Shown here: in pieces, positions 24,922-62,733 of the stretch
Numbering within the stretch: position 1 is the stretch's first letter
How the letters are laid out: the number at the start of each line of letters is the position of its first letter
From: Streptomyces sp. NBC_01237
GTDB lineage: Bacteria; Actinomycetota; Actinomycetes; Streptomycetales; Streptomycetaceae
Assembly (NCBI RefSeq): GCF_035917275.1
Contig: NZ_CP108508.1
Coordinates: 6,324,001-6,388,000 of the forward strand
DNA length: 64,000 bases
Reading direction: 5' to 3'
Notes under the pieces: model-generated
What the model was told of the DNA's origin: nothing
Seen by the model: only the letters and a program-made list of their open reading frames with translations
Databases searched by the model: none
Position numbers and translations under genes: made by a program

Positions 24922-25725
24922 ATGAGGTTCAGCCTGCTCGGTTCCTTCGAGATCACCACCGGAGCCGGAGCGCCGTGCACCCTGCGATCCCCGAAGGTGC
25001 GGCAGGTCCTGGCGCTGCTGCTCGCCCGCGCGAACGAAGTCGTGCCGGTGGACGCGCTGATACAGGAGCTGTGGGGCGACTCTCCGCCGCGCAGCGCACT
25101 GACGACTCTTCAGACGTACGTGTACCACGCGCGAAAGGCGTTCGCCCAGGAAGGTCTCGCGACAGCCGACAGGCCCCTCCTGGTCACCTGCCCGCCCGGC
25201 TACCGCATGGAGGTGGAGAGCGGCGAGGTGGACGTCGCCGTGTTCGAGGAGCGCATCAGGGAGGCGCGCAACAAGCTCCGTGAGGGTGACGACGAGTCGG
25301 CGCTGCGCCTGCTCACCGATGCCCTGGGGATGTGGCGGGGCAGAGTCCTCGCCGATGTCCTCGCGGGTGATGTGCTCACCTCGCACATCGCCTATCTGGA
25401 AGAGCTGCGGCTGCGCACCATCGAACTGCGCATCGAGGCCAGCATCCGGCTGGGCCACCGGCGCGAACTCGTCGCGGAGCTCTACGCCCTGGTCAAGGAC
25501 CACCCGCTCAACGAGTGGTTCCACGGCCAGCTCATCTCCATACTCGGCCTCTCGGGACGCCGCGGCGAAGCACTTGAGGCGTACCGGAACCTGCGGCAAC
25601 TGCTCAACGACGAGCTCGGACTCGACCCGTCGCCCGAGCTCCAGCGGCTCCAGCAGGAAGTACTCAACCCGTCACAGAGCGAACTGTCCCCGTTCATGTT
25701 CCGAGGGCTCGTCGCCGTCGGCTGA
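24922..25725 (+). CDS. SARP-family pathway activator
   Basis: A 267-residue Streptomyces antibiotic regulatory protein, the size of ActII-ORF4 and DnrI. Residues 1-95 are the OmpR-like winged helix (MRFSLLGSFEI, SPKVRQVLALLLARANEVV, LQTYVYHARKAF); residues 96-250 are the bacterial transcriptional activation domain (AYLEELRLRTIELRIEAS and GRRGEALEAYRNLRQLL). The ATG at 24922 has GGAG six bases upstream. SARPs bind direct heptamer repeats near the -35 region, and such repeats lie in front of most operons of this cluster. No TTA codon is seen in the gene. Confidence 0.95.
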   Translation: MRFSLLGSFEITTGAGAPCTLRSPKVRQVLALLLARANEVVPVDALIQELWGDSPPRSALTTLQTYVYHARKAFAQEGLATADRPLLVTCPPGYRMEVESGEVDVAVFEERIREARNKLREGDDESALRLLTDALGMWRGRVLADVLAGDVLTSHIAYLEELRLRTIELRIEASIRLGHRRELVAELYALVKDHPLNEWFHGQLISILGLSGRRGEALEAYRNLRQLLNDELGLDPSPELQRLQQEVLNPSQSELSPFMFRGLVAVG

Positions 25726-25739
25726 GCTGTGCGCGGACT

Positions 25740-25755
25740 TCGAGTGACGTGCGAG
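25740..25755 (+). promoter_or_regulatory. SARP-type repeat before the 2,3-dehydratase
   Basis: TCGAG at 25740 and GCGAG at 25751 are 11 bp apart in the gap between the SARP gene and the sugar dehydratase, 78 bp before its ATG. Confidence 0.5.
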
Positions 25756-25832
25756 CGAGATGTCATGTGGTCTGCGGACCATGGGCGAACGGGCGGGGGA
25801 CCCGCCGAAATCCGCCCTCTGGGAGGCTTGTC

Positions 25833-27122
25833 ATGTTCGGACGCATGTCGGAGTTCCACGCCTGGTTCGCGGAGCGGCAACGAGCGCAAACGTGCCGGGT
25901 GACCCCGGCGCCCCTCGACGCCCTGGACGGTTGGGAGGCCGACCGGGGCGCGAGCCTGATCCGCCACCGCACCGGACGGTTCTTCACGGTGGAGGGCCTG
26001 GAGGTCAGTACGGGAAACGGTGAGGGCACCTCCTGGGCTCAGCCCATCATCAATCAACCGGAATCCGGAATTCTAGGAATCCTGGTCAAGCGGTTCGGCG
26101 GCGTTCCGCATTACCTTCTCCAGGCGAAGATGGAGCCGGGCAACATCAATGTCCTGCAGCTGTCGCCCACCGTCCAGGCCACCCACAGCAACTACACCGG
26201 AGTTCACCGGGGAACGGCGGTTCCGTACCTGGAATACTTCCTCGCTCCTCGGCGCGGGAAAGTCCTCTTCGACGCACTTCAGTCGGAACAGGGAGCCTGG
26301 TTCCTGCGCAAGAGAAACCGCAACATGATCATAGAGGTCGCTGAAGACGTTCCCCTGCTCGACCGGTTCTGCTGGCTTACCCGGGAACAGATCGGCGAGC
26401 TACTGCGCTGTGAAAACCTGGTGAACATGGATACCCGTACCGTGCTGTCCGGACTTCCCCTGCCGGTAAACCCCGATGAACCCGGTGCGCACTCCACCGC
26501 GGAAATTCTCAGCTGGTTCACCGAGGCGAAGGCGGGGCGCCGGCTGGAGCGTTCCCGGGTACCCCTGGACAGCATCAAGGACTGGGTCCGGGAGGAAGGG
26601 CGCATCGTCCACACGAGCGGCCGCTACTTCTCGGTGATGGGCGTGGATGTGGAAGCGGGCGACCGGGAAGTCGCCCGGTGGTCGCAGCCGATGATCGCCC
26701 CCGTCGGCCGAGGCCTCATCGCCTTCCTGACGAGGACGATCCAGGGAGTGCCGCACCTCCTGATCCAGGCGTGCACCGAGGCGGGTACCCGCGACGTGGT
26801 CGAGGTCGGCCCCACCGTGCAGTGCAATCCCGGCAACTTCGCCCAGGAGCCCGCCGCATCGTGGCCGCGGTTCCTCGGCTCCGTCCTGTCGGCCCCGCCG
26901 TCCCGGATCCGTCTGGACGTGGTGCACTCGGAAGAGGGCGGACGCTTCTATCACGCCGAGAACCGGTACGCCGTGGTCGAGGCGGGTGACGACTTCCCCG
27001 ACACGGTGCCGGACGGCTTCATATGGGCGACGGTCGGCCAGCTGACCGAGCTGGCGCGGCTCGGCAACGTCGTCAACGTGGAAGCGCGCAACCTCCTCGC
27101 CTCCCTGCGGTTGATCCCGTGA
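25833..27122 (+). CDS. NDP-hexose 2,3-dehydratase
   Basis: A 429-residue enzyme of the EvaA/TylCVI/SpnO family that removes the 2-hydroxyl from NDP-4-keto-6-deoxyglucose, giving the unstable 3,4-diketo sugar. The protein is two homologous halves: SWAQPIINQPESGILG in the first (about residue 70) and RWSQPMIAPVGRGL in the second (about 280), each followed by SPTVQ or GPTVQ. The ATG at 25833 has GGGAGG seven bases upstream. Its stop overlaps the GTG of the 3-ketoreductase as GTGA, so the two steps are translationally coupled. Confidence 0.93.
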   Translation: MFGRMSEFHAWFAERQRAQTCRVTPAPLDALDGWEADRGASLIRHRTGRFFTVEGLEVSTGNGEGTSWAQPIINQPESGILGILVKRFGGVPHYLLQAKMEPGNINVLQLSPTVQATHSNYTGVHRGTAVPYLEYFLAPRRGKVLFDALQSEQGAWFLRKRNRNMIIEVAEDVPLLDRFCWLTREQIGELLRCENLVNMDTRTVLSGLPLPVNPDEPGAHSTAEILSWFTEAKAGRRLERSRVPLDSIKDWVREEGRIVHTSGRYFSVMGVDVEAGDREVARWSQPMIAPVGRGLIAFLTRTIQGVPHLLIQACTEAGTRDVVEVGPTVQCNPGNFAQEPAASWPRFLGSVLSAPPSRIRLDVVHSEEGGRFYHAENRYAVVEAGDDFPDTVPDGFIWATVGQLTELARLGNVVNVEARNLLASLRLIP

Positions 27123-28093
27123 TCCGCCTCGGCCTGATGGGCTGCGCCGACATCGCACTGCGGCGGATGATCCCCGCCGTCGCCGCGACCGAGGGTATCG
27201 AACTGGCCGCGGTGGCCAGCCGCAACCCGGACACCGCCCGCTTCGTCGCCCAGTGCGCCGACGCCGAGCCGGTCGACGACTACCGCGCGCTGCTGGAGCG
27301 CCCGGACATCGACGCCGTCTACATCCCGCTGCCGCCGGTGATGCACGCCGAGTGGATCGGCCGGTCGCTGCGCGCGGGCAAGCACGTCCTGGCGGAGAAA
27401 CCACTGACCATCAGCTACGAGACGACCAGCGAGATGGTCGCGCTGGCGCGTGCCTCGCACCTGGTGCTGCGGGAGAACTACATGTTCCTCCACCACGGCC
27501 AGCACCGGCGGGTGCGGGAGCTGCTGGACGAGGGAGCCATCGGGGACCTGCGCTCCTTCTCCGCCTCCTTCGCCATCCCCGCACGCCCCCCGCAGGACAT
27601 CCGGCTGCGGCCGGAGCTCGGCGGCGGTGCGCTGTTCGACGTGTGCGGCTATCCGCTGCGAGCGGCACAACTGCTGCTGGGATCCGATCTGAAGCTCCTG
27701 GGCTCCGGCCTGCGCCTCGATCCCCGGCAGCGGGTCGACATCGGGGGCAGCGCCCTGCTGCGCCGGGCGGACGGGGTGACCGCCCAGCTGACGTTCGGCA
27801 TGGACCATCAGTACACGTCCGAGTACGAGCTGGTGGGCAGCGCCGGGCGGATCAGTCTGCGGCACGCCTTCACCCCGCCCGTGGACCACCGGCCGGTCCT
27901 GCGCATCGAGCGGGGGACCTGCCAGGAGGAGCTCGTGCTGCAACAGGAGGACCAGTACGCGGCGGCCGTCGCCGCCTTCGTACAGGACATCGCCGGAAAC
28001 AACACGGCGGTGGACCCGGCGACGGTCAGACAGGCCGGGTTCATCGCGGCGATCCGCCGGACGGCCGACCGCTCGTGCGGCTGCGCTTCCTGA
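27119..28093 (+). CDS. NDP-hexose 3-ketoreductase (Gfo/Idh/MocA family)
   Basis: A 324-residue NAD(P)H oxidoreductase of the type (TylCII, SpnN, OleW, KijD10) that reduces the 3-keto group of the 2,3-dehydratase product. The N-terminal Rossmann segment is IRLGLMGCADIALRRMIPAV; the conserved GKHVLAEKPLT with the catalytic Lys and the region GGGALFDVCGYPL follow. The GTG start overlaps the 2,3-dehydratase stop. The end of the gene converges with the 3,4-dehydratase across a strong hairpin. Confidence 0.92.
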   Translation: MIRLGLMGCADIALRRMIPAVAATEGIELAAVASRNPDTARFVAQCADAEPVDDYRALLERPDIDAVYIPLPPVMHAEWIGRSLRAGKHVLAEKPLTISYETTSEMVALARASHLVLRENYMFLHHGQHRRVRELLDEGAIGDLRSFSASFAIPARPPQDIRLRPELGGGALFDVCGYPLRAAQLLLGSDLKLLGSGLRLDPRQRVDIGGSALLRRADGVTAQLTFGMDHQYTSEYELVGSAGRISLRHAFTPPVDHRPVLRIERGTCQEELVLQQEDQYAAAVAAFVQDIAGNNTAVDPATVRQAGFIAAIRRTADRSCGCAS

Positions 28094-28099
28094 ACGGCG

Positions 28100-28143
28100 A
28101 CGGCTCCCCCCGCACCTGCCACGTCAGGTGCGGGGGGAGCCGT
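28100..28143. terminator. Bidirectional terminator between convergent sugar genes
   Basis: A perfect 19-bp inverted repeat (28100-28118 with 28125-28143) with a 6-base loop fills the gap between the 3-ketoreductase and the 3,4-dehydratase. Confidence 0.9.
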
Positions 28144-28165
28144 TTCTCGCCGGTCCGGGGAGGTC

Positions 28166-29464
28166 TCAGGAGTTCTTCGAGGTGAAATCCCTGATGGACT
28201 CCGCCATGTAGTCGATCATCTCCTCGCTCAGGCCGGGATAGACACCGATCCAGAAGGTGTCCGTGGCGACCCTGTCGCTGTTCTCCAGGGAGCCGCTGAT
28301 GCGGTGGGGGTGGTCGATGTACGCGGGGTGGCGGGTGAGGTTGCCGGCGAAGAACCGGCGGGTACCGATCCTGCGCGCCTCCAGGAAGCTCACCAGCTCC
28401 TTGCGCGTGTACCGGGCGTCCTCGGCCACGGTGATGGCGAAGCCGAACCAGCTGGGGTCGCTGTCCGGGGTGGCCACGGGCAGGAGCAGCCCCGGTACGG
28501 AGTCCAGGCCCTCCCGCAGCCGCCGCCAGTTGGCACGCCGCGCCGTCCCGAAGTCCGGCAGTTTGCGCAACTGGCTGAGCCCCAGGGCTGCCTGAAGGTC
28601 CGTCGACTTCAGGTTGTAGCCGACGTGCGAGAAGATGTACTTGTGGTCGTAGCCGTGCGGCAACGTGCCCATCTGGTAGTCGAACCGCTTGAAGCAGCGG
28701 TTGTTCTCACCGGGCTCGCACCAGCAGTCACGGCCCCAGTCCCGCATCGACTCCACGATCCTGGCCAGTGCCAGATTGTCCGTGAGCACACAGCCGCCCT
28801 CGCCCATCGCGATGTGATGGGCCGGGTAGAAGCTGGTCGTCGCGATGTCGCCGAAGGTGCCCGTCAGCCTGCCGCGGTAGGTGGAGCCGACCGCGTCGCA
28901 GTTGTCCTCGATCAGGAACAGCCCGTGGTCCTCGGCGATGCGCGCGACCTCCTCCACGGCGAAGGGATTGCCCAGCGAGTGGGCGATCATGATGGCCTTC
29001 GTACGCGGCCCGATGGCCTCGGTGATCCGCTCCGGGGTGGTGTTGTAGGTTCCCAGCTCCACATCCACGAACACGGGGACCAGCCCGTTCTGGATGATCG
29101 GATTCACCGTGGTCGGGAATCCGGCCGCCACGGTGATCACCTCGTCACCGGGGACCAGCCGGCGGTCCTCCAGCTGGGGTGAGGTGAAGGCGGACATCGC
29201 GAGCAGGTTCGCCGAGGAACCGGAGTTCGCCAGATGGGCCTTGCGGAGCTTGAAGACCTTCGCGAACTCCCGCTCGAAGGTACGAGAACTCACCCCCGCG
29301 GCGATCCGCATGTCCAGGGCGGCCTCCACCAGGGCCATCCGGTCCTCGGCGTCGAACACCGCGCCCGACGGCCATACTTCGGAGACGCCCGGCTCGAACT
29401 CCTTCTCGTCACTGCCGTGGTACGCGCGGACCTGTTCCAGGATGCGGGCCTTGGCTTCGTTCAC
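28166..29464 (-). CDS. NDP-4-keto-6-deoxyhexose 3,4-dehydratase (SpnQ/UrdQ/RfbH type, PMP-dependent)
   Basis: A 432-residue aspartate aminotransferase-fold enzyme that removes the 3-hydroxyl group. In this subfamily the usual PLP-binding Lys is His, which lets the enzyme dehydrate instead of transaminate; here the segment is FYPAHHIAMGEGG, in agreement. Other conserved parts are GDEVITVAAGFPTTVNP and LIEDNCDAVGS. The GTG start has GGAGG upstream. It is the last gene of a six-gene minus-strand operon. SpnQ uses general ferredoxin or flavodoxin reductases, and none is dedicated here. Confidence 0.92.
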   Translation of the reverse strand: MNEAKARILEQVRAYHGSDEKEFEPGVSEVWPSGAVFDAEDRMALVEAALDMRIAAGVSSRTFEREFAKVFKLRKAHLANSGSSANLLAMSAFTSPQLEDRRLVPGDEVITVAAGFPTTVNPIIQNGLVPVFVDVELGTYNTTPERITEAIGPRTKAIMIAHSLGNPFAVEEVARIAEDHGLFLIEDNCDAVGSTYRGRLTGTFGDIATTSFYPAHHIAMGEGGCVLTDNLALARIVESMRDWGRDCWCEPGENNRCFKRFDYQMGTLPHGYDHKYIFSHVGYNLKSTDLQAALGLSQLRKLPDFGTARRANWRRLREGLDSVPGLLLPVATPDSDPSWFGFAITVAEDARYTRKELVSFLEARRIGTRRFFAGNLTRHPAYIDHPHRISGSLENSDRVATDTFWIGVYPGLSEEMIDYMAESIRDFTSKNS

Positions 29465-29503
29465 TTCTCATCGCCTCCCAGGGGCGTCGTCACCGAGTCG
29501 CTC

Positions 29504-30091
29504 TCATGCCGTGTACGGCTGCTTCTCGCGCCCCTCGCGCAGCGTCCTGCCCCACCAGGCCAGCTGGTCGAAGAGGACCTCGGCGGCCTTGCCGGTCCCG
29601 TCCGGGTCGAGCGGGTGCCCCTCCGCGTCGAACTGCTCCCACATGTTGTGGAAGCTCACGACGTCCCGCAGGGTGACGGCGTGCATCTCCGCGAAGACCT
29701 GCCGGAGCTGCTCGACGGCACGCTGTCCGCCGGCCATGCCCCCGTAGGAGACGAACGACACCGGCTTCGCCTGCCAGGCGGTGTACACGTAGTCGATGGC
29801 CAGTTTGAGGGACGCGGGATAGCCGTGGTTGTACTCGGGTGTGATCACGACACAGCCGTCGAGCGGCTCGATACGGTCCGCCAGTCCCGGCGTGTCCGCC
29901 GGCTCCGGGCGCGCGTCGAGCGTGAGCTTGAGCTCGTCGAGGATCGCCGGCTCCGCGAGATCGATGACGTGGATGTCCAGATCGGTGCGCTTGCGGGCCT
30001 CGGCGATGAACCAGTTGGCGATCGTGTCGGCGTACCGCCCGGTGCGGACGCTCCCGATGATGATGCCGATCTTGAGAGGTGCGTCGGACAT
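29504..30091 (-). CDS. NADPH-dependent FMN reductase (flavodoxin fold)
   Basis: A 195-residue reductase. The FMN phosphate loop is GSVRTGRYADTIANW, and TPEYNHGYPASLKLAIDY is the family signature. It would provide reduced FMN or reduce a quinone. Within the same operon lie two flavin-dependent oxygenases (the LLM protein and the ActVA-ORF5-like protein), so it may feed one of them. It may also deliver electrons to the 3,4-dehydratase next to it. Start ATG at 30091. Confidence 0.9.
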   Translation of the reverse strand: MSDAPLKIGIIIGSVRTGRYADTIANWFIAEARKRTDLDIHVIDLAEPAILDELKLTLDARPEPADTPGLADRIEPLDGCVVITPEYNHGYPASLKLAIDYVYTAWQAKPVSFVSYGGMAGGQRAVEQLRQVFAEMHAVTLRDVVSFHNMWEQFDAEGHPLDPDGTGKAAEVLFDQLAWWGRTLREGREKQPYTA

Positions 30092-30167
30092 GGAGAAGGG
30101 ACCTCACTCTGGGACTCGGAGATGTGGCGGAGCGCCGAGGACGGCACCCCGCCGCGGTGCGGGGGCT

Positions 30168-31118
30168 CTACGCGTTCGGCGCTACCGACGCGAGCGCCTT
30201 CAGGACGGCCAGCTGCTTGGTGTCGCGGGACCGGACGAGTTCCGCGTAGGTCTTGTCGCCGAACGCCTCTTCCGCCTGTGCGACAAGCGTCTCGATGAGG
30301 TCGTCGTCCACCCGCGGACGTCCCAGCAGCTCCCAGCCCTGCTCCATGCCGACCGCGCGGCCGGTGAGCCACTTGCGCAGACCCCCCTCGCCGCCCCCCA
30401 GGTGGAAGGCGTGGAAGGGACCGATGGTGGACCAGCGCAGCCCGATGGAGTTGGTGACGACCTCGTCCAGTTCCCCGACGGTGACCACTCCCTCGCGTAC
30501 GAGGTGGATGGACTCCCGCAGCAGGGCGTTCTGCAGCCGGTTGGCCGCGAAGGCGAGGATCTGCTTGCGCAGGACGACGGGAACCCGGCCGACCGAACGG
30601 TAGAACTCGACCGCCTCGCGCACCGCCTCCGGATCCGTCTCCTCGCCCGCCACGACCTCGATCAGCGGCACCACATGGGGCGGGTTGAACGGGTGGCCGA
30701 CGACGAGCCGGCTGCGGTCCGCCATCCGCGCCCCCATGGCATCGGGGCTGAGCATCGAGGTGGAGGAGAGGATCAGCGCACCGGCCGGCGCGGCCTTGCC
30801 CACCCGCTCGAACAGCTCCTGCTTCAGCTCCAGATTGTCCGGGGCGTTCTCCACGATGACATCGGCGTCCGCCACCGCCGTCTCCAGATCGGGCTCGAAC
30901 TCCAGCCGGTCGGCGGAGTCGGCCAGCCGGTCCGCTTCCTCCGGGAGGAAGGGGGCGAAGAGCGCGATGCCCTCCTGGACGATCCGCTCCGCCTCCGGGC
31001 GACGGCTGTTGACCCGCACACGCAGCCCGTAGCCGAGGAAGAGCGCGATCCAGCTCAGCCCGATGGTGCCCGCCCCGATCACCGTGACGGTACGGGGCTC
31101 CTTGTTCTGTTCACTCAT
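30168..31118 (-). CDS. ActVI-ORF1-like 3-hydroxyacyl-CoA dehydrogenase (pyran ring ketoreductase, RED1)
   Basis: A 316-residue NAD-dependent dehydrogenase with N-terminal motif VIGAGTIGLSW and catalytic region VVGHPFNPPHVVPLIEVV. Fatty acid enzymes of this family act on CoA esters, but in actinorhodin-type clusters ActVI-ORF1 reduces the C-3 ketone of the bicyclic polyketide and fixes the stereochemistry of the later pyran ring. Use of this enzyme family, rather than a short-chain dehydrogenase, is linked to 3S products in actinorhodin work, so 3S is inferred. It lies between the flavin reductase and the LLM oxygenase. Confidence 0.88.
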   Translation of the reverse strand: MSEQNKEPRTVTVIGAGTIGLSWIALFLGYGLRVRVNSRRPEAERIVQEGIALFAPFLPEEADRLADSADRLEFEPDLETAVADADVIVENAPDNLELKQELFERVGKAAPAGALILSSTSMLSPDAMGARMADRSRLVVGHPFNPPHVVPLIEVVAGEETDPEAVREAVEFYRSVGRVPVVLRKQILAFAANRLQNALLRESIHLVREGVVTVGELDEVVTNSIGLRWSTIGPFHAFHLGGGEGGLRKWLTGRAVGMEQGWELLGRPRVDDDLIETLVAQAEEAFGDKTYAELVRSRDTKQLAVLKALASVAPNA

Positions 31119-31137
31119 GCGCTTGTCCGACCTCGCC

Positions 31138-32202
31138 TCATCGCCGGGAGAGCTTGGGAATGACCTGCTCGGCCATCAGCCGCATGGTGGTGGCCGCGTC
31201 CTCGTAGCTGAGATGGCCCGAGTGGACACCGAGACTGATGGTGATGTCGTCGCCGAACCACTCGGCGATGTCCTCCAGTTGGGACCTGACCTGATCCGGC
31301 GCACCGATGAGGAGCTTCCGGGCGTTCATCTTGTCGTCGAAGTGGGACCGCTTCGTCGCCTCGAACAGCCGCTCGTAGCCCGGGTACGCGGAACTGGTGG
31401 TGGTGCCCCAGGACTGCACCGCCTGGTGGATGGCCGCGGTGTTGCGGTCGTCGTCGTGGCGTCCCAGACGGCGTGCCTCCTCGCCGTCGAGGGAGACCAC
31501 GCACGGGTAGCTGAAGTGGATCTGCTCCGTCCCCGGCTCGTGCCCGGAGGCTGCCCACTCCGCGCGGTAGACGCTCAGCCGGTTCTTCAGTTCCTCGGTG
31601 GACATCACATTGGGCACCGTCTGCAGGCTGTGACCCGCCCGGCCCGCCTCGGCGCAGGACTCGGCGCTGCGGGCGGTGGTGACGAAGACGGGGGGATGCG
31701 GCTGCTGCAACGGCCGCGGCAGCAGGGTGACCGGGCCGAACTGGTGGAACCGGCCGTCGAACACGACGTCCTCTTCCGTCCAGAGCCGCTTGATGGCCTC
31801 CACACCCTCGACGAAGCGGTCCTTGCTCTCGTCGATGGGGACGCCGAACGCCTTGAACTCGTCGGGCAGGAAGGCGCGTCCGAACGCGGCGTCCACCCGG
31901 CCGTTGGAGATGTTGTCGAGCATGGCGAGCTTGCCGGCCAGCTTCACCGGGTGCTGGAACGCGGGGATGGTCGCGCTCGTGCCGAGCCGGACGCGGCTGG
32001 TGCGGCCCGCCGCCGCGGCCAGGAAGGTGACCGGGTCGGGGCTGTAGCCTCCGTACGAGAAGAAGTAGTGCTCCACCATCTTGACGTGGGCGAAGCCCAG
32101 TTCCTCGGCCAGGTCGACCAGCCTGAGGCTCTCGTCGAAGTACTGCTGGGCCGGCTTGTCGGCCGGTCCGACGGTGGGAAAGAAGACGATCCCGAACTTC
32201 AT
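31138..32202 (-). CDS. LLM-class flavin-dependent oxygenase (luciferase-like)
   Basis: A 354-residue TIM-barrel flavoprotein of the bacterial luciferase superfamily. Recognisable parts are FGIVFFPTV at the start, GFAHVKMVEHYFFSYGG, VRLGTSATIPAFQHPV and DNISNGRVDAAFGRAFLPDEF. It needs reduced FMN or F420; the neighbouring reductase suggests FMN. The ATG at 32202 has GGAG five bases upstream. Its step in the pathway is not known; hydroxylation or oxidative ring change of the aromatic core is possible. Confidence 0.87.
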   Translation of the reverse strand: MKFGIVFFPTVGPADKPAQQYFDESLRLVDLAEELGFAHVKMVEHYFFSYGGYSPDPVTFLAAAAGRTSRVRLGTSATIPAFQHPVKLAGKLAMLDNISNGRVDAAFGRAFLPDEFKAFGVPIDESKDRFVEGVEAIKRLWTEEDVVFDGRFHQFGPVTLLPRPLQQPHPPVFVTTARSAESCAEAGRAGHSLQTVPNVMSTEELKNRLSVYRAEWAASGHEPGTEQIHFSYPCVVSLDGEEARRLGRHDDDRNTAAIHQAVQSWGTTTSSAYPGYERLFEATKRSHFDDKMNARKLLIGAPDQVRSQLEDIAEWFGDDITISLGVHSGHLSYEDAATTMRLMAEQVIPKLSRR

Positions 32203-32218
32203 GGTGACTCCTCGTCGA

Positions 32219-32689: not shown

Positions 32690-32728
32690 TCCGGTTGCCT
32701 TTCGTCTGTCAGGAGGAGATCGCCCGGG

Positions 32729-53795: not shown

Positions 53796-53817
53796 GGCGG
53801 CCCGCCCCGACCGGATC

Positions 53818-53843
53818 TCGAAGCGCCATCGAGGGAACTCGCG
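53818..53843 (+). promoter_or_regulatory. SARP-type triple repeat, plus orientation (rmlB)
   Basis: TCGAA (53818), TCGAG (53829) and TCGCG (53839) are spaced 11 and 10 bp. GAATCTT a few bases downstream could be the -10 element; the rmlB ATG is at 53880. Confidence 0.55.
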
Positions 53844-53879
53844 GAATCTTCTGCCGATGCGAAGCCCTGGGAGGCCTCA

Positions 53880-54851: not shown

Positions 54852-54904
54852 CCGGCGTCCTCGCACCGGGTACGACACCCCCACGACCGGGCTCCTTGCG
54901 CCCT

Positions 54905-54940
54905 TCGAGTGGGTCTCCAGGTGTGTCCTCGACTCTCGAA
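54905..54940 (+). promoter_or_regulatory. SARP-type repeats before the minimal PKS operon
   Basis: TCGAG (54905) and TCCAG (54916) are 11 bp apart; TCGAC (54929) and TCGAA (54936) follow with less regular spacing. They precede the thioesterase-minimal PKS operon by 47 bp. Confidence 0.5.
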
Positions 54941-54986
54941 CCGCCCACCACCCCTCATGGACCGGCCAACGTGAAGAGGAGTATCG

Positions 54987-55751
54987 ATGTCTGATCGGGG
55001 GCCGATAAAGCTGTACTGCTTCCCCCACGCGGGAGCCGGTGTCTCGTCCTTCGGCCGCTGGCCCTCGGCGGTCGGCTCCGCCGCGTTGTCCACCCCGGTG
55101 CTGCTGCCCGGCCGGGGCGGCAGACGCCGCGAGAGACGCATCGTCGACCCCAGTGGGCTGCTCGCCGAACTGCTCCGGATGTACGGGAGACCGACGAAGG
55201 AGCCGTACGGGCTCTACGGACACAGCCTCGGCGGGATGATCGCCTACACCGTCGCCCGCGCGGCGCACCGGGCCGGGCTGCCGGGTCCCGCCTTCGTCGC
55301 CGTCGGGGCGTGCCCACCGCCCCACGCCACCGGGGGGCTCACCGAAGCCGGTGACCTCTCCGACGACGAACTGCTGGACCTGCTGCACGAGTTCGGCGCC
55401 GTACCGCCGGATACACCGCGCGGCGGGGTGTGGCAGCGCGTCGCGCTGGCCGTCATCCGGGACGACCTGAGACTCGCGCGGGCGCTCCGTGCGGACGCGG
55501 ACGGCCCGCTCGATGTGCCGCTGCTCATCCTCTCCGGCCGCGACGACCCGCTGGCCGCGCCGGACGTCATGACCGGCTGGCGCGACTGGGGCAGCCGGAC
55601 CGTCGTCGAGCGAACGCTTCCCGGCGACCACTTCTTCGTACGCGGAAGGGAACTGCCCCGGCTTCTCGGGCGGGCCTGCCGTGTCGTACAGCGCACCCAG
55701 CCACTGGCGCATCAGGTCAGCGGGAGGACAGACGTGGAGGATCGCCGATGA
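54987..55751 (+). CDS. Type II thioesterase (alpha/beta-hydrolase)
   Basis: A 254-residue editing thioesterase. Ser in [15 protein letters not shown], Asp in LSGRDDPLA and His in PGDHFFVRG form the triad. Type II thioesterases usually remove wrong acyl groups from carrier proteins of modular PKS or NRPS; in type II aromatic clusters they are uncommon, so here it may free mis-primed ACP. GGAG precedes the ATG, and the stop overlaps the KS-alpha start (ATGA). Confidence 0.9.
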
Positions 55752-57016
55752 ACCGTCGAGTCGTCATCACCGGCATAGGAGTCGTGGCCCCCGGCGGGGT
55801 CGGCACCAAGGAGTTCTGGTCGCTGCTGACCGCCGGCCGGACAGCGACCCGGGGCATCACCCTGTTCGATGCCTCGCCCTTCCGCTCACGCATCGCCGCC
55901 GAGGCCGACTTCGATCCGATCGAGCACGGCTTCTCGGACGACGAGTCCCGGACTCTCGACCGGGCAGCCCAGTTCGCGATCGTCAGTGCGGCCGAGGCCC
56001 TTGAGGACAGCGGTCTGACCGGCGCTCTCGACCCGCTGCGTACGGGGGTCACCCTGGGCAGCGCGGTCGGCTGCACGATGGGGCTGGACCGGGAGTACAA
56101 CACCGTGAGCGAGGGGGGCCGCGACTGGCAGGTCAACCACGAGCTGGCCGTGCCCCACCTGTTCGACTACTTCGTGCCCAGCTCGATGGCGGCCGAGGTG
56201 GCCTGGCGGACCGGTGCTCAGGGACCGGTCTCCCTGATCTCCACCGGATGCACCTCGGGCCTGGACTCGATCGGCCACGCGGTGGAACTCATCCGCGAGG
56301 GAAGCGCCGATGTCATGGTCTCCGGGGCCACCGAGGCGCCGATCTCACCGATCACCGTCGCCTGCTTCGACGCGATCAAGGCCACCTCGCCGCGCAACGA
56401 CGAACCGGAGACCGCCTCGCGCCCGTTCGACGCGACCCGCAACGGGTTCGTCCTGGGCGAGGGTTCGGCCGTCTTCATCCTGGAGGAGCTCTCGCACGCG
56501 CTCCGCCGCGGTGCGCACGTCTACGCCGAGATCTCCGGCTTCGCCACCCGCTGCAACGCCCACCACATGACCGGGCTGAAACCGGACGGCAAGGAGATGG
56601 CCGAGGCCATTCGGGTCGCCCTGGACGAGGCACGCCTCGACGGCACCGCCGTCGACTACATCAACGCCCACGGCTCGGGCACGAAGCAGAACGACCGGCA
56701 CGAGACCGCCGCGTTCAAGCGCAGCCTGGGCAGCCACGCCTATGACGTACCGGTCAGCTCCATCAAGTCGATGATCGGGCACTCGCTCGGCGCCATCGGG
56801 TCACTGGAGGTGGCGGCCAGCGTGCTGGCCATCGAGCACAACACCGTGCCGCCCACCGCCAACCTGCACACGCCGGACCCGGCCTGCGACCTCGACTACA
56901 CCCCCCTGACCGCTCGCGAGCAGCGCACGGACACCGTGCTCAGCGTCGGCAGCGGCTTCGGCGGCTTCCAGAGCGCCATGATCCTGACCAGCCCGCGCCC
57001 GGGAGAGGCCGCATGA
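55748..57016 (+). CDS. Type II PKS ketosynthase alpha
   Basis: A 422-residue beta-ketoacyl synthase, equal in length to ActI-ORF1. The active-site Cys is in [10 protein letters not shown] (about residue 168), the two His in [11 protein letters not shown] and GHSLGAIGS, and Lys in SIKSMIGHS. With KS-beta and ACP it builds the poly-beta-ketone from malonyl units. Start overlaps the thioesterase stop, and stop overlaps the KS-beta start. No dedicated KSIII or acyltransferase is seen, which fits an acetate starter by malonyl decarboxylation. Confidence 0.97.
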
Positions 57017-58275
57017 CCACCCAGACCCTGCACCGGACCGGCTCCGGCGCCCCGTCCGCGGCCGAAGCCCCCGTCGTCACCGGCATCGGCGTCACCGCGC
57101 CCAACGGCCTCGGCACCGAGGCGTGGTGGGCGGCCGTCCTGCGCGGCGAGAGCGGCATCCGGCCCGTCTCCCGCTTCGACACCGGCCGGTACCCCGCCAA
57201 GCTCGCGGGGGAGGTACCGGGCTTCGACCCGGCGGCGCACATCCCCAGCAGGCTGCTGCCGCAGACCGACCACATGACCCGCCTCGCGCTGACCGCCGCC
57301 GAGGAGGCGTTCGCCGACGCGGGACTGGACACCTCCGAGCTCCCCGACTACGCCGCCGGAGCCGTCACCGCCAGTTCCGCCGGCGGTTTCGAGTTCGGCC
57401 AGCGGGAGCTTCAGGCCCTGTGGAGCAAGGGCGGCAAGTACGTCAGCGCCTACCAGTCCTTCGCCTGGTTCTACGCCGTCAACACCGGGCAGATCTCCAT
57501 CAGGCACGGCCTGCGGGGACCCAGCGGTGTGCTGGTCACGGAGCAGGCCGGCGGACTCGACGCGGTCGCCCAGGCCCGCAGGCAGCTCCGCAAGGGCACC
57601 CGGCTGCTGGTCACCGGCGGGGTGGACTCCTCGCTCTGCCCCTGGGGGTGGGCGGCCCATCTGGCGGGCGGTGAACTGAGCACCGGGGAGGACCCGGACC
57701 GGGCCTATCTGCCGTTCTCCGCCGACGCCCGCGGCCATGTCGCGGGTGAGGGCGGTGCGCTCCTCGTCCTGGAGGACGCGGCCCACGCCCGTGAGCGGGG
57801 GGCCGGGGTCCACGGCACGGTCGACGGATACGCGGCGACCTTCGACCCGCCCCCCGGCTCGGGCGGCACCCCGAGGCTGCGCGCCGCGGCCGAACTGGCC
57901 CTGCGCGACGCCGGACTGACGGCGGCCGACGTGGACGTGGTGTTCGCCGACGCGGCGGGCAGGCGCGAGGCCGACCGTCAGGAGGCCGAGGCGATCAGCG
58001 GGATCTTCGGCGAGTACGGCGTCCCGGTCACCGCGCCCAAGACCATGACCGGACGGCTGTCGGCCGGCGCCGCCTCCCTGGACGTGGCCGCGGCGTTCCT
58101 CGCCCTGCGGGACCAGGTGATCCCGCCGACCGTCAACGTCGCGGAGGTGGCCGGGGACTGCCCCCTCGACCTCGTGACCGGCACGAGCCGCCCGGCCCCG
58201 CTGCGCACGGCGCTGGTGCTGGCGCGCGGCCGGGGCGGCTTCAACGCCGCCATGGTCGTCCGGGCCGCCGGCTGA
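57013..58275 (+). CDS. Type II PKS ketosynthase beta (chain length factor)
   Basis: A 420-residue partner of KS-alpha in which the active-site Cys is replaced by Gln: [11 protein letters not shown] (Gln about residue 178), the classical sign of a chain length factor. It helps set the number of extensions. Together with the ActIII, ActVII and ActIV types nearby a 16-carbon (octaketide) chain is expected. The N-terminus is about 15 residues longer than in ActI-ORF2. Starts at ATG 57013, overlapping the KS-alpha stop. Confidence 0.96.
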
Positions 58276-58336
58276 CCGCCACCAGGACCACCACGGAACA
58301 CGACCGACCCCCACCCGACGAAGACCTGAGAGGGCA

Positions 58337-58597
58337 ATGATGACTGCTTTCACGATCACCCAGCTGACCGGCCTGCTGCGCGAGTGCGCGGGCGAGGACG
58401 ACACGGTCGACCTCAGCGGCGATGTGCTCGACACCGCCTTCGCCGACCTCGGCTACGACTCCCTCGCCCTGTTGCAGACCACCGGATGCATCGAGCGCGA
58501 CCACGGGGTGACCATCGACGAGGACGCGGTCTCCGAGGCCGAGACGCCCCGCCAGTACCTCGTACTCGTCAACGAGGCGCTCTCGGTCAAGAGCTGA
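58337..58597 (+). CDS. Type II PKS acyl carrier protein
   Basis: An 86-residue acidic carrier protein. The phosphopantetheine Ser is in LGYDSLALLQ (Ser42). It follows KS-beta by 61 bp. ATG codons at 58337 and 58340 are both possible. It is activated by a phosphopantetheinyl transferase, for which a candidate lies three genes downstream. Confidence 0.96.
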   Translation: MMTAFTITQLTGLLRECAGEDDTVDLSGDVLDTAFADLGYDSLALLQTTGCIERDHGVTIDEDAVSEAETPRQYLVLVNEALSVKS

Positions 58598-58691
58598 TCC
58601 GGCTCCCTACTGCCCAAGGTTCCCGACCGTCCTCGCGGTCCGTGCGCGGCAAGCGGCGGCCGCGGGGCGGCGGGTCCGAACCGGTATCGCC

Positions 58692-59210
58692 ATGCCAGGA
58701 GGACCGTTGCCCATCGTCGACCCCACGGAATTCGTCCGCGCCATGGCACGCGTGCCCACCCCGGTGACCGTGGTCACCACCGTGGACGCGGCCGGCCGGC
58801 GCTGGGGATTCACCGCCGGCACCTTCAGTTCGCTCTCGCTCGACCCGCCGCTGGTCCTGGTCTGCCCGGCCAAGTCGGCCTCCTGCCACGGAGCCTTCGT
58901 GTCCGCGGACCGGTTCCTGGTGAACGTCCTGTCCGCCGACCAGTCGACCATCGCCGCCGACTTCGCCCGGTCCGGCCACGACAAGTTCGCCGGCGGCGCC
59001 ATGATGCCCTGCGAGTCCGGGCTGCCCGGACTGACCACCGCCACCGCCCGGATCGTCTGCACGCTTCACGCGGTGCTGGACGGCGGGGACCACAGCATCC
59101 TCGTCGGCCGCGTCGAATCCGTCGCGACGGGCGACCGGGACCCGCTCGTCTACTACAACCGGCAGTTCACCCGGCCGGCGGCGGACCCGGCCCTCGCACC
59201 GGCCCGCTGA
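58692..59210 (+). CDS. ActVB-like flavin reductase
   Basis: A 172-residue flavin:NAD(P)H oxidoreductase of the HpaC/ActVB family. Family marks: MARVPTPVTVVTT, GFTAGTFSSLSLDPPLVLVC and the terminal LVYYNRQF. It should supply free reduced FMN to the ActVA-ORF5-like monooxygenase 25 kb away, as ActVB does. The ATG at 58692 has no clear ribosome binding site; a TTG at 58707 with AGGAGG four bases upstream is an alternative start. Its stop overlaps the next ATG (TGATG). Confidence 0.92.
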   Translation: MPGGPLPIVDPTEFVRAMARVPTPVTVVTTVDAAGRRWGFTAGTFSSLSLDPPLVLVCPAKSASCHGAFVSADRFLVNVLSADQSTIAADFARSGHDKFAGGAMMPCESGLPGLTTATARIVCTLHAVLDGGDHSILVGRVESVATGDRDPLVYYNRQFTRPAADPALAPAR

Positions 59211-60940
59211 TGACCGCGTCCCCGTGCGCCACCGCCACGGACCGTGTCGCGGCGCTGGAGACCGTGCTCGGGGACCCCGCGGACCCCCTCAACCCCCTCG
59301 GTGACGCGGCCGTGCTCGCCGCGGACCGGCGCGGCGAACTCCCTCCGGGAGCCGAGTCGTTGCTCGGCTCCTTCGGCCTCGACGCCGAATTCGTCCCCCT
59401 CGACCTGGGCGGGCGGCTGACCGACGTCGCCACCGCGGCGGAACTGCTGCGCGCGGTCAGCCGCAGGGATCTGGCGCTGGCCCGCGGATACGGCTCCGCC
59501 AGCCTGCTCGCCGCCCAGTTCGTCTGGGCGTACGGCAGCCCCGGGCAGCGACGCGACACCGCCCGTCTCCTGCTGGGCGGAGGCAAGCTCGCCACCGGCG
59601 CCTACAGCAGCCACGGCCTGGCGGTCGTCCCCCGCGGGGGCACCGCGCGGTGGCAGCTCGAAGGATCGCTGCCCGCCCTGGTCAACGCCCCCCGGGCCGC
59701 GGGGTTCGTCACGGCGGCGCGCCACCCGGCGGACGGCGGCGAGTCGGTCCTGCTGATCCGCCGGGAGGACCTGCCTCCCGGCGCCGTCCGTGAGTGCTCG
59801 CCCGACGAGGCCGACGCTCCCCGCCGGATTCCCGCCGGCAGCCTGGAGTTCCGGGGCTGGCCGGTGCCCGAACGGTCCTTCGTCGGCCCGCCGGGCCACG
59901 GTTTCCCGGCGACCGTCCGGGTACTGGAGGCCACCCGCACGCTGGGCCCCTCGATGGCGCTGGGCTGCGCGGACACCGCGCTGCGCGCCGCACTCCGCGC
60001 CGTCCTCACGGCCGAGGGCGGTGTCCGCCGCATCACTTCCCGATCCACCCGGCGGGCCGTCGTCTCCCAGTTCGCCGATCTGCTCGTCGCGGACTGCGTC
60101 CTGCTCGTCGCGACCCGTTCCCTGTATCTGCGGCCGGGACCTTCGAGCATCTGGACGGCGGCGGCGCGCTGTCTCGTACCGCGCCTCCTCCAGCAGAGCA
60201 CGGGAGACCTCCGTGCCGTACTGGGCGCGCATCTCCTGCGTGAGGACGGAGGGTACGGGACCTTCCGCAAGCACCTGCGCGATCTCGCCGAAGTCCCGCC
60301 GGGCTCGGTCGGGGACAGCCGGGCGCTGTCCACCCTGCTGCCCCATCTGGCGACCCTGGCCCGGCGGTCGTGGACCGCGGCGGACGCGGGCGGGATCGAT
60401 GAACTGTTCCTTCCCGGCGGGCCGCTGCCACCGCTGGACCTCGGCCGCCTGGACGGCGCGACCACGGTGGACCCGCTGGCCGGCATGCTGGCCGGCGCAC
60501 ACGATCCGACCGGGGTGGGCACGGGGCCGACGCCGACCGCGCTCCGGCTCCGGCTCCGGGAACTGGGCGGTCAGCTCGCCGGGCTGAGGGAGGAGTGCCG
60601 GCGGCTGCCCGAACACGACCCCGCCGCCGTGGCCAACGCCCGCGGCTACGCCCACGCGGAGCGCTACACGCTGCTCGTCGCGGCCGCCGCCTGTCTCGGG
60701 GTGTGGCAGTCGGCGCGCTGGCGGCCGGACGCCGGATTCCTGGCCGACCCCAGCTGGCTGACCGTCGCGCTGGGCCGGATCTCGTTGCGGCTGGGCCTGC
60801 CCGTCGCGGCACCGGCGCCCGGCAGCCGGGAGGAGGAGGCGCTGCTGAGCGAGGCGGTGCGCCGCTGCCGGGAGAACCGCAGCCTCGACCTGTACGACAC
60901 GGTGCTGGGATCCGCGGACCCCGGCCGTCGGGGAGGCTGA
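59210..60940 (+). CDS. Acyl-CoA dehydrogenase-fold flavoprotein, enlarged
   Basis: A 576-residue protein whose first 380 residues keep the acyl-CoA dehydrogenase layout (RRDLALARGYGSASLLAAQF, VLEATRTLGPSMALGCADTA) and whose C-terminal 190 residues form an extra helical part with conserved RGYAHAERYTLLVAAAACLG. Normal members have about 380-400 residues. The catalytic Glu of true dehydrogenases is not evident. It lies between the ActVB-like reductase (overlapping start) and the phosphopantetheinyl transferase, so it may be a second reduced-flavin oxygenase or an oxidase of the pathway. Confidence 0.75.
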   Translation: MTASPCATATDRVAALETVLGDPADPLNPLGDAAVLAADRRGELPPGAESLLGSFGLDAEFVPLDLGGRLTDVATAAELLRAVSRRDLALARGYGSASLLAAQFVWAYGSPGQRRDTARLLLGGGKLATGAYSSHGLAVVPRGGTARWQLEGSLPALVNAPRAAGFVTAARHPADGGESVLLIRREDLPPGAVRECSPDEADAPRRIPAGSLEFRGWPVPERSFVGPPGHGFPATVRVLEATRTLGPSMALGCADTALRAALRAVLTAEGGVRRITSRSTRRAVVSQFADLLVADCVLLVATRSLYLRPGPSSIWTAAARCLVPRLLQQSTGDLRAVLGAHLLREDGGYGTFRKHLRDLAEVPPGSVGDSRALSTLLPHLATLARRSWTAADAGGIDELFLPGGPLPPLDLGRLDGATTVDPLAGMLAGAHDPTGVGTGPTPTALRLRLRELGGQLAGLREECRRLPEHDPAAVANARGYAHAERYTLLVAAAACLGVWQSARWRPDAGFLADPSWLTVALGRISLRLGLPVAAPAPGSREEEALLSEAVRRCRENRSLDLYDTVLGSADPGRRGG

Positions 60941-60943
60941 ACG

Positions 60944-61819
60944 GTGCCCCCGCGCCCCGGCCTGACCGGCCCGCCCCCCACCCGCGTCGCCGGCCCGTCC
61001 GGCCCGTGGCACCCGGTACGTGACGCCCTGCGGGACCGGGGGTACGCGCTCGTCCACGCCCAGGTCGGCGACTGGCTTCCCGTCGCCGGGGACGAGCGGG
61101 CCGTGGAGCGGCTGCTGGGCCACGAGGCCGGGCGCCTGGACACGATCGGAGGAGCCGGGGCCCGCGACCGGTTCACCGTGTCCCGGCTGCTGCTGAAGTA
61201 CGCGGCCGGGGCGCTGCTCGACGCCGAACCGGCCGATCTGGAGCTGGCCCGCGGCCCCAACGGGCGTCCGTACCTGCGCGGGTTCAGCCGGTTCGAGATC
61301 ACCTTGAGCCATACCGGCCGCACCGTGGCGGTGGGACTGAGCGGACTCGGCCCCATCGGGGTGGACGTCGAGCAACCGGGCCGTCCCGCCTACGCCACCG
61401 GCCTGGCGGAGGACATCTGCACCCCGTACGAACGCTCCGTCCTCGACTGGCTCCCTCCCGAGGACCGCAACGCGGCGGTGATCCGGCTGTGGACCCTCAA
61501 GGAGGCGTACAGCAAGGCCCTCGGCCTCGGCACCCGGCTCTCGTTCCGGTCCTTCGGTTTCACCACCCCGGCCACCGACGACACCGCTCCGCGGCTGCTG
61601 AAGGCGGACGGACAGCCCTCGGACACCGGGGGCTGGCAGTTCGAGACGCACCCGCTGGAGGGCGGTTGCACGCTGAGCGCCGCCGTCGGCCCTTCGGCCT
61701 TCGCGTCCACCGGGATCCAGCGCGCGGCGGAAATGGTCGATCAGCGGCTCATGAGGGCCGTCGTGCGCGGACCGTTCGACGCGCACGACGGCCCTACCGA
61801 AACGAGGAGAGAACAATGA
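60944..61819 (+). CDS. Sfp-type 4'-phosphopantetheinyl transferase
   Basis: A 291-residue transferase that would load phosphopantetheine on the cluster ACP. The family motifs are LSHTGRTVAVGLSG, GPIGVDVEQPG with the magnesium Asp, and WTLKEAYSKALGLG with the catalytic Glu and Lys. The GTG start at 60944 has GGGGAGG upstream; its stop overlaps the next ATG. Many Streptomyces type II clusters lack their own enzyme, so an in-cluster copy supports an independent unit. Confidence 0.92.
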   Translation: MPPRPGLTGPPPTRVAGPSGPWHPVRDALRDRGYALVHAQVGDWLPVAGDERAVERLLGHEAGRLDTIGGAGARDRFTVSRLLLKYAAGALLDAEPADLELARGPNGRPYLRGFSRFEITLSHTGRTVAVGLSGLGPIGVDVEQPGRPAYATGLAEDICTPYERSVLDWLPPEDRNAAVIRLWTLKEAYSKALGLGTRLSFRSFGFTTPATDDTAPRLLKADGQPSDTGGWQFETHPLEGGCTLSAAVGPSAFASTGIQRAAEMVDQRLMRAVVRGPFDAHDGPTETRREQ

Positions 61820-62733
61820 TCAGTCCTTCCACGTCCGCCGCGCGGCTCCAGGAGGTCGCCGAGGACATCTACGCCTACGTCCAGCCGGACGGCGGCTGGT
61901 GCCTCAACAACGCCGGCCTCATCACCGCGGGGGGCCGCCCCGCGCTCATCGACACCGCGGCCACCGAGGCACGCGCCCTGGCTCTGCGCGAAGCGGTCGC
62001 CGAAGTCACCCCGCACGATCCCCGCTACGTGATCAACACCCACCCGCACGGCGATCACACCTTCGGCAACCGCTTCTTCGCGGAGGAGGCGGTGATCATC
62101 GCCCACGAGGCGACCCGCGCCGAGATGGACCTGGCCGGACTGCATCTGACCGGTCTGTGGCCCGGAGTCTGCTGGGGCGACCTCTCGGTGGAGCTGCCCG
62201 CCCTCACCTTCCGCGAGCCCATCACCCTCCACCTCGGCGGCGTACGGGCGGAGCTGATGCACCTGGGCACCGCCCACACCACCAACGACACCGTGGTCTG
62301 GCTGCCGGACCAGCGCGTCCTGTTCACCGGCGACGTGGTGATGTCGGGAGCCACACCGTTCTGCCTCACCGGGTCCGTCGCCGGGTCGATCTCCGTCATC
62401 GAGCGGCTGCGCGCCCTCTCGCCCCGCGTCGTGGTTCCCGGTCACGGCCCGGTCGGCGGTCCCGAACTCCTCGACACCACGGAGTCCTATCTGCGGTACG
62501 TCCAGCGCCTGGCCGCCGACGGCATCGCCGCGGGACTCTCCCCGCTCCGGATCGCACGCGAGGCCGCCCCGACCCCGTTCGCCCACCTCCTGGACAGCGA
62601 ACGTCTGGTGCCCAACCTGCACCGCGCCTGCGCCGAGGCCAACGGTGCCGCGGCGGGCCATCACCTGGACATCGGGGAGCTGTTCTCCGAGATGGTCGAC
62701 TTCCACGGCGGCCTGCCCCACTGCGCGGCCTGA
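61816..62733 (+). CDS. Metallo-beta-lactamase-fold polyketide cyclase (ActIV type)
   Basis: A 305-residue MBL-fold protein with INTHPHGDHTFGN (HxHxDH), LGTAHTTNDTVVW, LFTGDVVMSG and VVVPGHGPVGG, so both zinc sites are complete. ActIV of the actinorhodin pathway closes the second ring and releases the bicyclic product by thioester cleavage; the overall sequence fits that group. GGAGA precedes the ATG at 61816, which overlaps the transferase stop. It is the last gene of the minimal PKS operon and of the cluster. Confidence 0.9.
   Translation: MISPSTSAARLQEVAEDIYAYVQPDGGWCLNNAGLITAGGRPALIDTAATEARALALREAVAEVTPHDPRYVINTHPHGDHTFGNRFFAEEAVIIAHEATRAEMDLAGLHLTGLWPGVCWGDLSVELPALTFREPITLHLGGVRAELMHLGTAHTTNDTVVWLPDQRVLFTGDVVMSGATPFCLTGSVAGSISVIERLRALSPRVVVPGHGPVGGPELLDTTESYLRYVQRLAADGIAAGLSPLRIAREAAPTPFAHLLDSERLVPNLHRACAEANGAAAGHHLDIGELFSEMVDFHGGLPHCAA

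Follow-up and report, generated by a model that had tools for sequence, protein, structure and literature searches.

The genome of Streptomyces sp. NBC_01237 (10.19 Mb in four contigs) carries, within the 64,000-nucleotide stretch analysed here as the window (G000:C1:6324001-6388000; coordinates below are window positions), a gene cluster that combines a polyketide synthase (PKS) with pyranonaphthoquinone tailoring genes and a pathway for a 4-amino-2,3,4,6-tetradeoxyhexose. Gene types were assigned by Pfam and NCBIfam scans of the window proteins, and both agree with the types and positions named in an earlier sequence-only reading of this DNA. Alignments of the flanks to a same-species genome, G077, stop at 23947 and resume at 62809, with 1.47 kb of other sequence between them. 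Neither the ActVI-ORF1-type protein of the window (at E 1e-90) nor its DUF6365 protein (at E 1e-60) finds a match in G077. Because the flanks of G077 align to its edges and G077 lacks these two genes, the cluster is regarded as an island of about 38.9 kb (23948..62808) without a counterpart in G077. The recurrence of its gene sets in relatives, together with the two missing genes and the other sequence at the G077 site, argues that the cluster is more than a chance assembly. We conclude that the probable product of this island is a glycosylated pyranonaphthoquinone from the auricin/griseusin branch, bearing a sugar derived from thymidine diphosphate (TDP)-4-amino-2,3,4,6-tetradeoxy-L-hexose.

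The PKS genes lie on the plus strand and comprise a type II thioesterase (54987..55751), a ketosynthase alpha (KS; 55748..57016), a chain-length factor (CLF; 57013..58275) and an acyl carrier protein (ACP; 58337..58597), with a phosphopantetheinyl transferase at 61016..61819; the thioesterase, ACP and transferase were assigned by Pfam. The KS and CLF match Aur2A and Aur2B of the auricin cluster at 85% and 82%, and are thus of the Aur2AB type. The actinorhodin (act) KS/CLF crystal structure 1tqy served as the octaketide reference. At CLF positions 109/112/116, which we take to be a gate tied to chain length, the act CLF reads F/T/F and the window CLF, like Aur2B, reads F/G/L. Mutating CLF channel residues has been described to swap octaketide and decaketide output (PMC12664062). 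In a comparison of 31 cluster regions (window included, some partial, nine showing no CLF), four act-type clusters (G286, G144, G373 and G089; 91-100% to the act CLF) and G129 carry F/T/F. The reading F/G/L is shared by the window and family A (TP-A0874, S. neyagawaensis, MA5143a, S. chumphonensis and JJ36), and further by NRRL S-31, S. seoulensis, S. fimicarius, G136, cf386, G319 and Saccharothrix carnea; G072 has two CLFs, one F/T/F and the other Y/G/L, and G268 and G096 each pair one F/G/L CLF with one of another reading. F/G/L is also the most frequent gate in the set of 80 nearest CLF loci, which span many cluster types, so it counts against the act type and not for any single product. 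Maximum-likelihood analysis of 59 CLF rows places the window CLF with Aur2B in a 22-row clade (100/99), apart from a nine-row F/T/F clade that includes act (100/99).

The proposal that the PKS follows actinorhodin logic is thus not supported, and the KS/CLF phylogeny that the sequence-only reading had set as its own test places the CLF with the non-octaketide Aur2B. In the experiments outlined by Csolleiova et al. 2023 (PMC10409956), deletion of aur2AB abolished auricin and deletion of aur1DE had no effect; the Aur2 pair yields a decaketide when expressed heterologously, aur2AB combined with landomycin or aur1 partners gave rabelomycin, and the auricin aglycone is described as a decaketide. 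By homology to this experimentally tested Aur2 pair, the window PKS is likely Aur2-type and decaketide-building, not actinorhodin-like. The aglycone is likely of the griseusin/auricin type, because the KS and CLF resemble Aur2A and Aur2B and the gate is not F/T/F.

Paired KS/CLF genes were also encountered elsewhere. G136 (L171-L173), G268 (L168-L170) and G096 (L174-L176) contain, like auricin, one aur1-like and one aur2-like pair; the gates of the aur1-like CLFs differ (FGL, TGL and SAL in this set, FAL in auricin). Streptomyces sp. Isolate_45 (L007 12434) has an F/T/F octaketide-type CLF next to a window-like KS/CLF (CLF 78%, gate Y/G/L), and also carries GT, DUF6365 and methyltransferase genes (GT, glycosyltransferase). 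About 230 kb from the window, a second CLF-like gene of the same genome (G000:C1:6092976-6094181) matches the window CLF at 65% and contains one in-frame TGA.

The tailoring genes support the pyranonaphthoquinone class that had been proposed, with ActIII-, ActVII-, ActIV-, ActVI-ORF1-, enoyl reductase- and ActVA-ORF5/ActVB-type genes all present in the window. Four minus-strand genes encoding a 3HCDH-type pyran-forming reductase of the ActVI-ORF1 type (30168..31118), a luciferase-like monooxygenase (31138..32202), a SnoaL_4 protein (32219..32689) and an acyl-CoA-dehydrogenase-like flavin hydroxylase of the ActVA-ORF5 type (32729..33874) match, at 73, 88, 68 and 63%, a single block of the auricin plasmid pSA3239, of which the first 126 kb was searched for window genes. 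The reductase and the hydroxylase match those of the four act-type clusters at 63-65% and 45-47%, and the luciferase-like gene has no match in those four regions. Its close form (82-88%) is present in the auricin region as well as in regions that have F/G/L among their CLFs (one short piece shows no CLF). The gene was rejected as an exclusive decaketide marker, as G221 has a 61% homologue and its extended region shows an F/T/F CLF.

A further group matches the aur2 region at 67-81%: the metallo-beta-lactamase (MBL)-fold second-ring cyclase of the ActIV type (61816..62733, plus strand; 81%), the ActVB-type flavin reductase (58692..59210, plus), the ActIII-type C9 ketoreductase (52931..53716, minus), the aromatase/cyclase (51973..52917, minus), a short-chain dehydrogenase (51131..51976, minus; 72%), a multicopper oxidase with a Tat signal (49120..50562, minus; 67%) and the 4-aminotransferase described below. 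Coupled to the flavin reductase gene is one for a 576-aa protein (59210..60940, plus) that gives no Pfam hit of its own; four homologues, located within family A clusters or close to them, match it at 57-60%, and homologues in cf386 and L012 hit ACAD domains weakly. It is a diverged acyl-CoA-dehydrogenase relative, perhaps acting as a hydroxylase. An enoyl reductase (41923..42843, plus) is present as had been claimed, but is nearer to the ActVI-ORF4 type than to the ActVI-ORF2 type: compared with G286, whose CLF is 100% identical to that of act, it matches the gene at the ActVI-ORF4 position at 50% and that at the ORF2 position at 34%. The act-cluster gene lying between both reductases matches, at 37%, a secreted 213-aa window protein without a Pfam hit (35015..35656, minus; about 37% across act-type clusters); the names ActVI-ORF2, -ORF3 and -ORF4 for these positions, of which the secreted protein occupies ORF3, are our assumption. 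Pfam further assigns an NADPH-dependent FMN reductase (29504..30091, minus), a short-chain dehydrogenase (38521..39348, minus), a second SnoaL_4 protein (42936..43388, minus) and two membrane acyltransferases of PF01757 on the plus strand (37278..38465 and 40671..41837), the latter matched at 51-55% in related clusters.

All seven activities of an L-tolyposamine gene set were seen in the window: a glucose-1-phosphate thymidylyltransferase (the TDP-glucose synthase; 39679..40611, plus; PF00483), a TDP-glucose 4,6-dehydratase (53880..54851, plus; Pfam), a TDP-hexose 2,3-dehydratase (25845..27122, plus; PF03559, 3.8e-161), a TDP-hexose 3-ketoreductase of the Gfo/Idh/MocA family (27128..28093, plus; Pfam), a TDP-hexose 3,4-dehydratase (28166..29464, minus), a TDP-4-keto-hexose 3,5-epimerase (44581..45180, minus; PF00908) and a TDP-hexose 4-aminotransferase (43451..44584, minus). 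The same seven activities have been assigned to L-rhodinose and L-tolyposamine in the grecocycline cluster, there together with a 4-ketoreductase (PMC4943663). The 3,4-dehydratase and the aminotransferase form a DegT-family pair in which, as had been noticed earlier, His in the motif FYPAHHIAMGEGG of the former replaces the Lys found in SFDAMKILVTGDGG of the latter. The best solved matches of the 3,4-dehydratase are the CDP-hexose 3-dehydrases 3bcx and 3bb8, and it scores above the cut-off of the RfbH model; those of the aminotransferase, which matches the auricin-plasmid enzyme at 70%, are TlmJ and then ArnB. Alignment of the epimerase to RmlC shows that His62, Tyr132 and Asp171, presumably the catalytic residues of RmlC, are kept, and its gene overlaps that of the aminotransferase by 4 bp. 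Both the amino-sugar pathway and the turn toward the L series proposed earlier are supported by the gene families found; the sugar would be TDP-4-amino-2,3,4,6-tetradeoxy-L-hexose, the epimerase pointing to the L series.

Of the 31 regions, only the window and cf386 were assigned an epimerase match, and in cf386 no aminotransferase match accompanies it. Elsewhere, epimerase matches occur in L009 and L075 (43-45%), an extension of G221 (53%), G360 and G143 (45-55%; G360 also has a weak aminotransferase match of 33%) and four rhodinose-type granaticin clusters (65-67%). A close aminotransferase and an epimerase thus occur together in the window only, among regions compared of which some are partial. 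A methyltransferase gene (34091..34921, plus), not named in the sequence-only reading and found through a PF13649 hit, would encode an N- or O-methyltransferase of the MitM/RebM type; its nearest solved structures are MitM, then the 3bus chain, which we take to be of the RebM type, and then a D-glucose O-methyltransferase. Clusters that share this GT and DUF6365 contain homologues of it at 55-66%. The auricin-plasmid candidate for an SpnS-type N,N-dimethyltransferase, as expected for D-forosamine, was not assigned in the window.

The window also contains a GT of the UrdGT2/LanGT2 type (45177..46307, minus), which matches five granaticin-type GTs at 57-59%, the GTs of other DUF6365 clusters at 60-64% and an auricin-plasmid GT at 30%. 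Among the 31 regions two alternative modules can be distinguished, one made up of an SpnS-like methyltransferase, an auricin-type GT, hyp350 and SRPBCC2, the other of a MitM/RebM-like methyltransferase, a UrdGT2-type GT and DUF6365. The second is found in the window, NRRL S-31, S. seoulensis, G136, G072 and G129; the first is incomplete in S. neyagawaensis, MA5143a and S. chumphonensis, which have no SpnS-like match, and in G096, which has no SRPBCC2 match. The DUF6365 protein itself (35742..37019, minus; PF19892) is rare, occurring in 6 of 392 Streptomyces genomes at E 1e-60 and in 9 of 394 genomes of a family-wide draw, its own included in each count. Two homologues, one at 88% from Streptomyces sp. 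NPDC017448 and one at 80%, suggest that near relatives of the window cluster occur elsewhere. Its AlphaFold2 model (pLDDT 91.3) has a GT-B fold, and Foldseek ranks the forosaminyltransferase SpnP first; by VIA, BshA, UDP-GlcNAc 2-epimerases, LanGT2, SpnP and UrdGT2 fall within two Z units. Because this list spans many GT-B families, the fold match alone does not give a substrate.

Co-occurrence makes the DUF6365 protein a candidate trideoxysugar transferase. Among the 392 genomes, five others contain a GT matching that of the window at 60% or more (G129, G381, G136, G331 and G246), and four of these have DUF6365, the exception being G246. The G246 cluster is colinear with that of G331: over about 53 kb of the latter, the two align in blocks at 71-88% DNA identity. 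In the core, which runs from the regulator to the flavin reductase, they show one large difference, in which 4.5 kb of G331 (26723-31244) corresponds to 0.3 kb of G246 (38595-38892; joined regions L244 and L285); upstream of the regulator gene they differ again (2.7 vs 9.3 kb). The 4.5-kb block contains the 3,4-dehydratase, DUF6365 and 3,5-epimerase genes. By its place in the three sister clusters G559, G651 and G711, between the hydroxylase and 3,4-dehydratase genes, a short-chain dehydrogenase of the 4-ketoreductase kind (PF01370) would belong to this block as well; G331 matches it at 80%, and G246 has no match to it or to the 3,4-dehydratase, DUF6365 or 3,5-epimerase. These clusters have the F/T/F gate, and their phosphopantetheinyl transferase gene adjoins the cyclase gene, as in the description of gra-orf32/33 (PMC9813960); by gate and gene order they look granaticin-type. 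Because the three block partners of DUF6365 are enzymes of the L-rhodinose branch, it should be an L-rhodinose transferase. Granaticin B contains L-rhodinose, and its cluster is described as having a single identified GT homologue, with sugar attachment left unclear (PMC12190653); DUF6365 is a candidate for the rhodinosyltransferase. We therefore offer, at somewhat below even odds, a broader proposal in which DUF6365 proteins are GT-B glycosyltransferases for 2,3,6-trideoxy- and 4-amino-tetradeoxyhexoses, including the L-rhodinosyltransferase of granaticin B and an L-tolyposamine-type transferase in the window, whose product would then be a two-transferase decaketide glycoside.

The remaining genes of the island include a SARP-family regulator with BTAD and Trans_reg_C domains (24922..25725, plus), an MFS exporter (47345..49015, plus; Pfam) and a mycothiol-dependent DsbA/Rv2466c-like protein (46592..47308, plus; Pfam). 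The last may serve self-protection, since forosaminyl-griseusin was found as N-acetylcysteine adducts that are thought to be mycothiol-derived (PMC8588249). No integrase was hit among the Pfam-scanned window proteins. At the G077 site, the replaced stretch (L224, approximately 3377-4425 in window orientation) contains an open frame that looks PIN-like by eye. It lies between two copies of a 38-bp segment taken from the 3' end of the L-serine dehydratase gene; this looks like a repeated insertion site. The 38-bp sdaA repeat, looked for at the left edge of the island, has no second copy in the window with 30 or more of 45 matching bases.

Taken as a pathway, the Aur2-type KS/CLF would build a decaketide whose first two rings would be closed by the ketoreductase, aromatase and MBL cyclase. 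Formation of the pyran and quinone would then fall to the reductase of the ActVI-ORF1 type and the enoyl reductase, together with the secreted cyclase-like protein, the luciferase-like oxygenase and the two-component flavin hydroxylase; spiroketal formation is presumed. TDP-glucose would pass through the 4,6-dehydratase, 2,3-dehydratase, 3-ketoreductase, 3,4-dehydratase, 3,5-epimerase and 4-aminotransferase to TDP-4-amino-2,3,4,6-tetradeoxy-L-hexose, which may be methylated. The granaticin-type GT and the GT-B-fold DUF6365 protein would attach the sugar or sugars, through a linkage considered below, and one or two acyltransferases might acylate the product.

An octaketide benzoisochromanequinone from an actinorhodin-like PKS, carrying the same 4-amino-tetradeoxy sugar, would account for the ActVI/ActVA/ActVB-type tailoring genes, and related octaketide-type (F/T/F) clusters that combine these sugar genes with GT/DUF6365 do occur (G129, from Streptomyces gobiensis, and G442). 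We consider it very unlikely here, as the gate, the 82% match to Aur2B and the tree group the PKS with the decaketide auricin system, and the close luciferase-like form tracks auricin and F/G/L regions with no match in the four act-type regions. The sugar could instead be D-configured and D-forosamine-like, the epimerase standing outside the route and the product being a forosaminyl-griseusin close to known ones. The other sugar genes do match clusters that have no epimerase match, with the aminotransferase at 64-70%, but the 4-bp overlap of the epimerase and aminotransferase genes, the retained catalytic residues and the 65-67% match to epimerases of L-rhodinose-type gene blocks make this unlikely. 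More evenly balanced is the manner of attachment. A C-linked aminosugar, as in Sch 38519 or granaticin, in place of an O-glycoside would fit the 57-59% match of the GT to five granaticin-type clusters, its 48% match to the C-transferase UrdGT2 and its match of only 30% to an auricin-plasmid GT; the GT matches the O-transferase LanGT2 at the same 48%, and the segment that we take to be the C/O mode switch is mixed. Identity was accordingly discarded as a way of reading the linkage, and we regard C-attachment as a possibility that falls short of an even chance. LanGT2 has been converted to a C-transferase (PMC3391682).

Several observations weigh against the preferred auricin/griseusin-branch L-aminosugar glycoside and against the role proposed for DUF6365. 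The product is a prediction from gene content. Chain length read from sequence is not certain, and an earlier report from the same group (PMC6784081, section 2.3) describes deletion of aur1D, the other KS gene, as abolishing auricin. Three auricin-plasmid genes, hyp350, SRPBCC2 and GT2, have no assigned counterpart in the window; the product may therefore depart from griseusin in its aglycone or decoration, although these genes are not known to define the aglycone class. The epimerase could serve another sugar, and the GT is equally near to a C- and an O-transferase. For DUF6365, the co-occurrence argument compares four clusters that have the block with a single one that lacks it, and the homologues in G217 and G488 (38-39%) have no such neighbours, save for a 29% thymidylyltransferase match in G488. 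The HxGG donor-phosphate motif is replaced, in the consensus of 23 aligned DUF6365 homologues, by a stretch matched by eye as FHLPS, a point against ordinary catalysis.

If the glycosylated decaketide reading is correct, the scaffold prediction is corrected from octaketide to auricin/griseusin-like decaketide, and the island would define a new route by which a pyranonaphthoquinone acquires an L-configured 4-aminosugar. The class includes antibacterial members such as auricin, and such a route would also be of practical interest. The presence/absence pattern would also offer DUF6365 as a second transferase for the granaticin sugar attachment that PMC12190653 leaves unclear. The earlier suggestion that pyranonaphthoquinones with a 4-amino-tetradeoxy sugar could not be named is superseded by auricin, described with D-forosamine (PMC6784081), and 3'-O-D-forosaminyl-griseusin A (PMC8588249), while Sch 38519 has an aminosugar (PMC12190653). 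No L-tolyposamine or L-forosamine pyranonaphthoquinone was named in the literature searched, mostly outside subscription journals, nor was a two-transferase glycoside (granaticin-type GT with DUF6365) on a decaketide pyranonaphthoquinone found there as a scaffold-sugar combination.

Among known systems, the auricin cluster (aur1/aur2, on pSA3239) shares with the window the Aur2A/B-type KS/CLF, the MBL cyclase, flavin reductase, ketoreductase, aromatase, short-chain dehydrogenase, multicopper oxidase and 4-aminotransferase, the ActVI-ORF1/luciferase/SnoaL/hydroxylase block, the 3,4- and 2,3-dehydratases and the 3-ketoreductase. It differs in its SpnS-like methyltransferase candidate, its GTs, hyp350, a second SRPBCC and an extra KS/CLF pair (reported inactive), and it has no 3,5-epimerase match within the first 126 kb. 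Biosynthetic gene cluster (BGC) 1.31 of Streptomyces sp. CA-256286, confirmed by its authors as the forosaminyl-griseusin source (PMC8588249), shares by its published description SpnO/N/Q/R-type genes, KS/CLF/ACP, ketoreductase, aromatase and C5-C14 cyclase, but has a known D-forosamine product and an SpnS-type methyltransferase to which the window has no counterpart when probed with the auricin candidate. Its order by position and locus tag, SpnO-SpnN-SpnQ, C5-C14 cyclase, aromatase, ketoreductase and SpnR (PMC8588249), recurs in TP-A0874 (KS 87% and CLF 74% to the window), and by our own count from Table 2 of that paper forosaminyl-griseusin has 20 skeleton carbons, which fits a decaketide. 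Grecocycline, with L-tolyposamine, involves the same seven sugar activities, but on an angucycline aglycone and with a 4-ketoreductase for L-rhodinose (PMC4943663). Granaticin-type clusters share the GT (57-59%, all five) and, in four of the five, DUF6365 (43-44%), the 3,5-epimerase (65-67%) and the 3,4-dehydratase (69-71%), but have an F/T/F CLF, in four of five a 4-ketoreductase-like gene, and aminotransferase matches of only 28-30%. Sch 38519, likened by description, is a benzoisochromanequinone with an aminosugar, which is doubly C-linked (PMC12190653). The F/T/F pyranonaphthoquinone-type cluster of G129 (Streptomyces gobiensis, L179-L181), with a 3,4-dehydratase at 82%, 4-aminotransferase at 67%, GT at 64%, DUF6365 at 54% and the same methyltransferase type, is a better candidate than the window for a benzoisochromanequinone with a 4-amino sugar or an Sch 38519-like product. 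What is special to the window in this comparison set is the combination of the 3,5-epimerase, which completes the L-tolyposamine gene set, with a granaticin-type GT and DUF6365.

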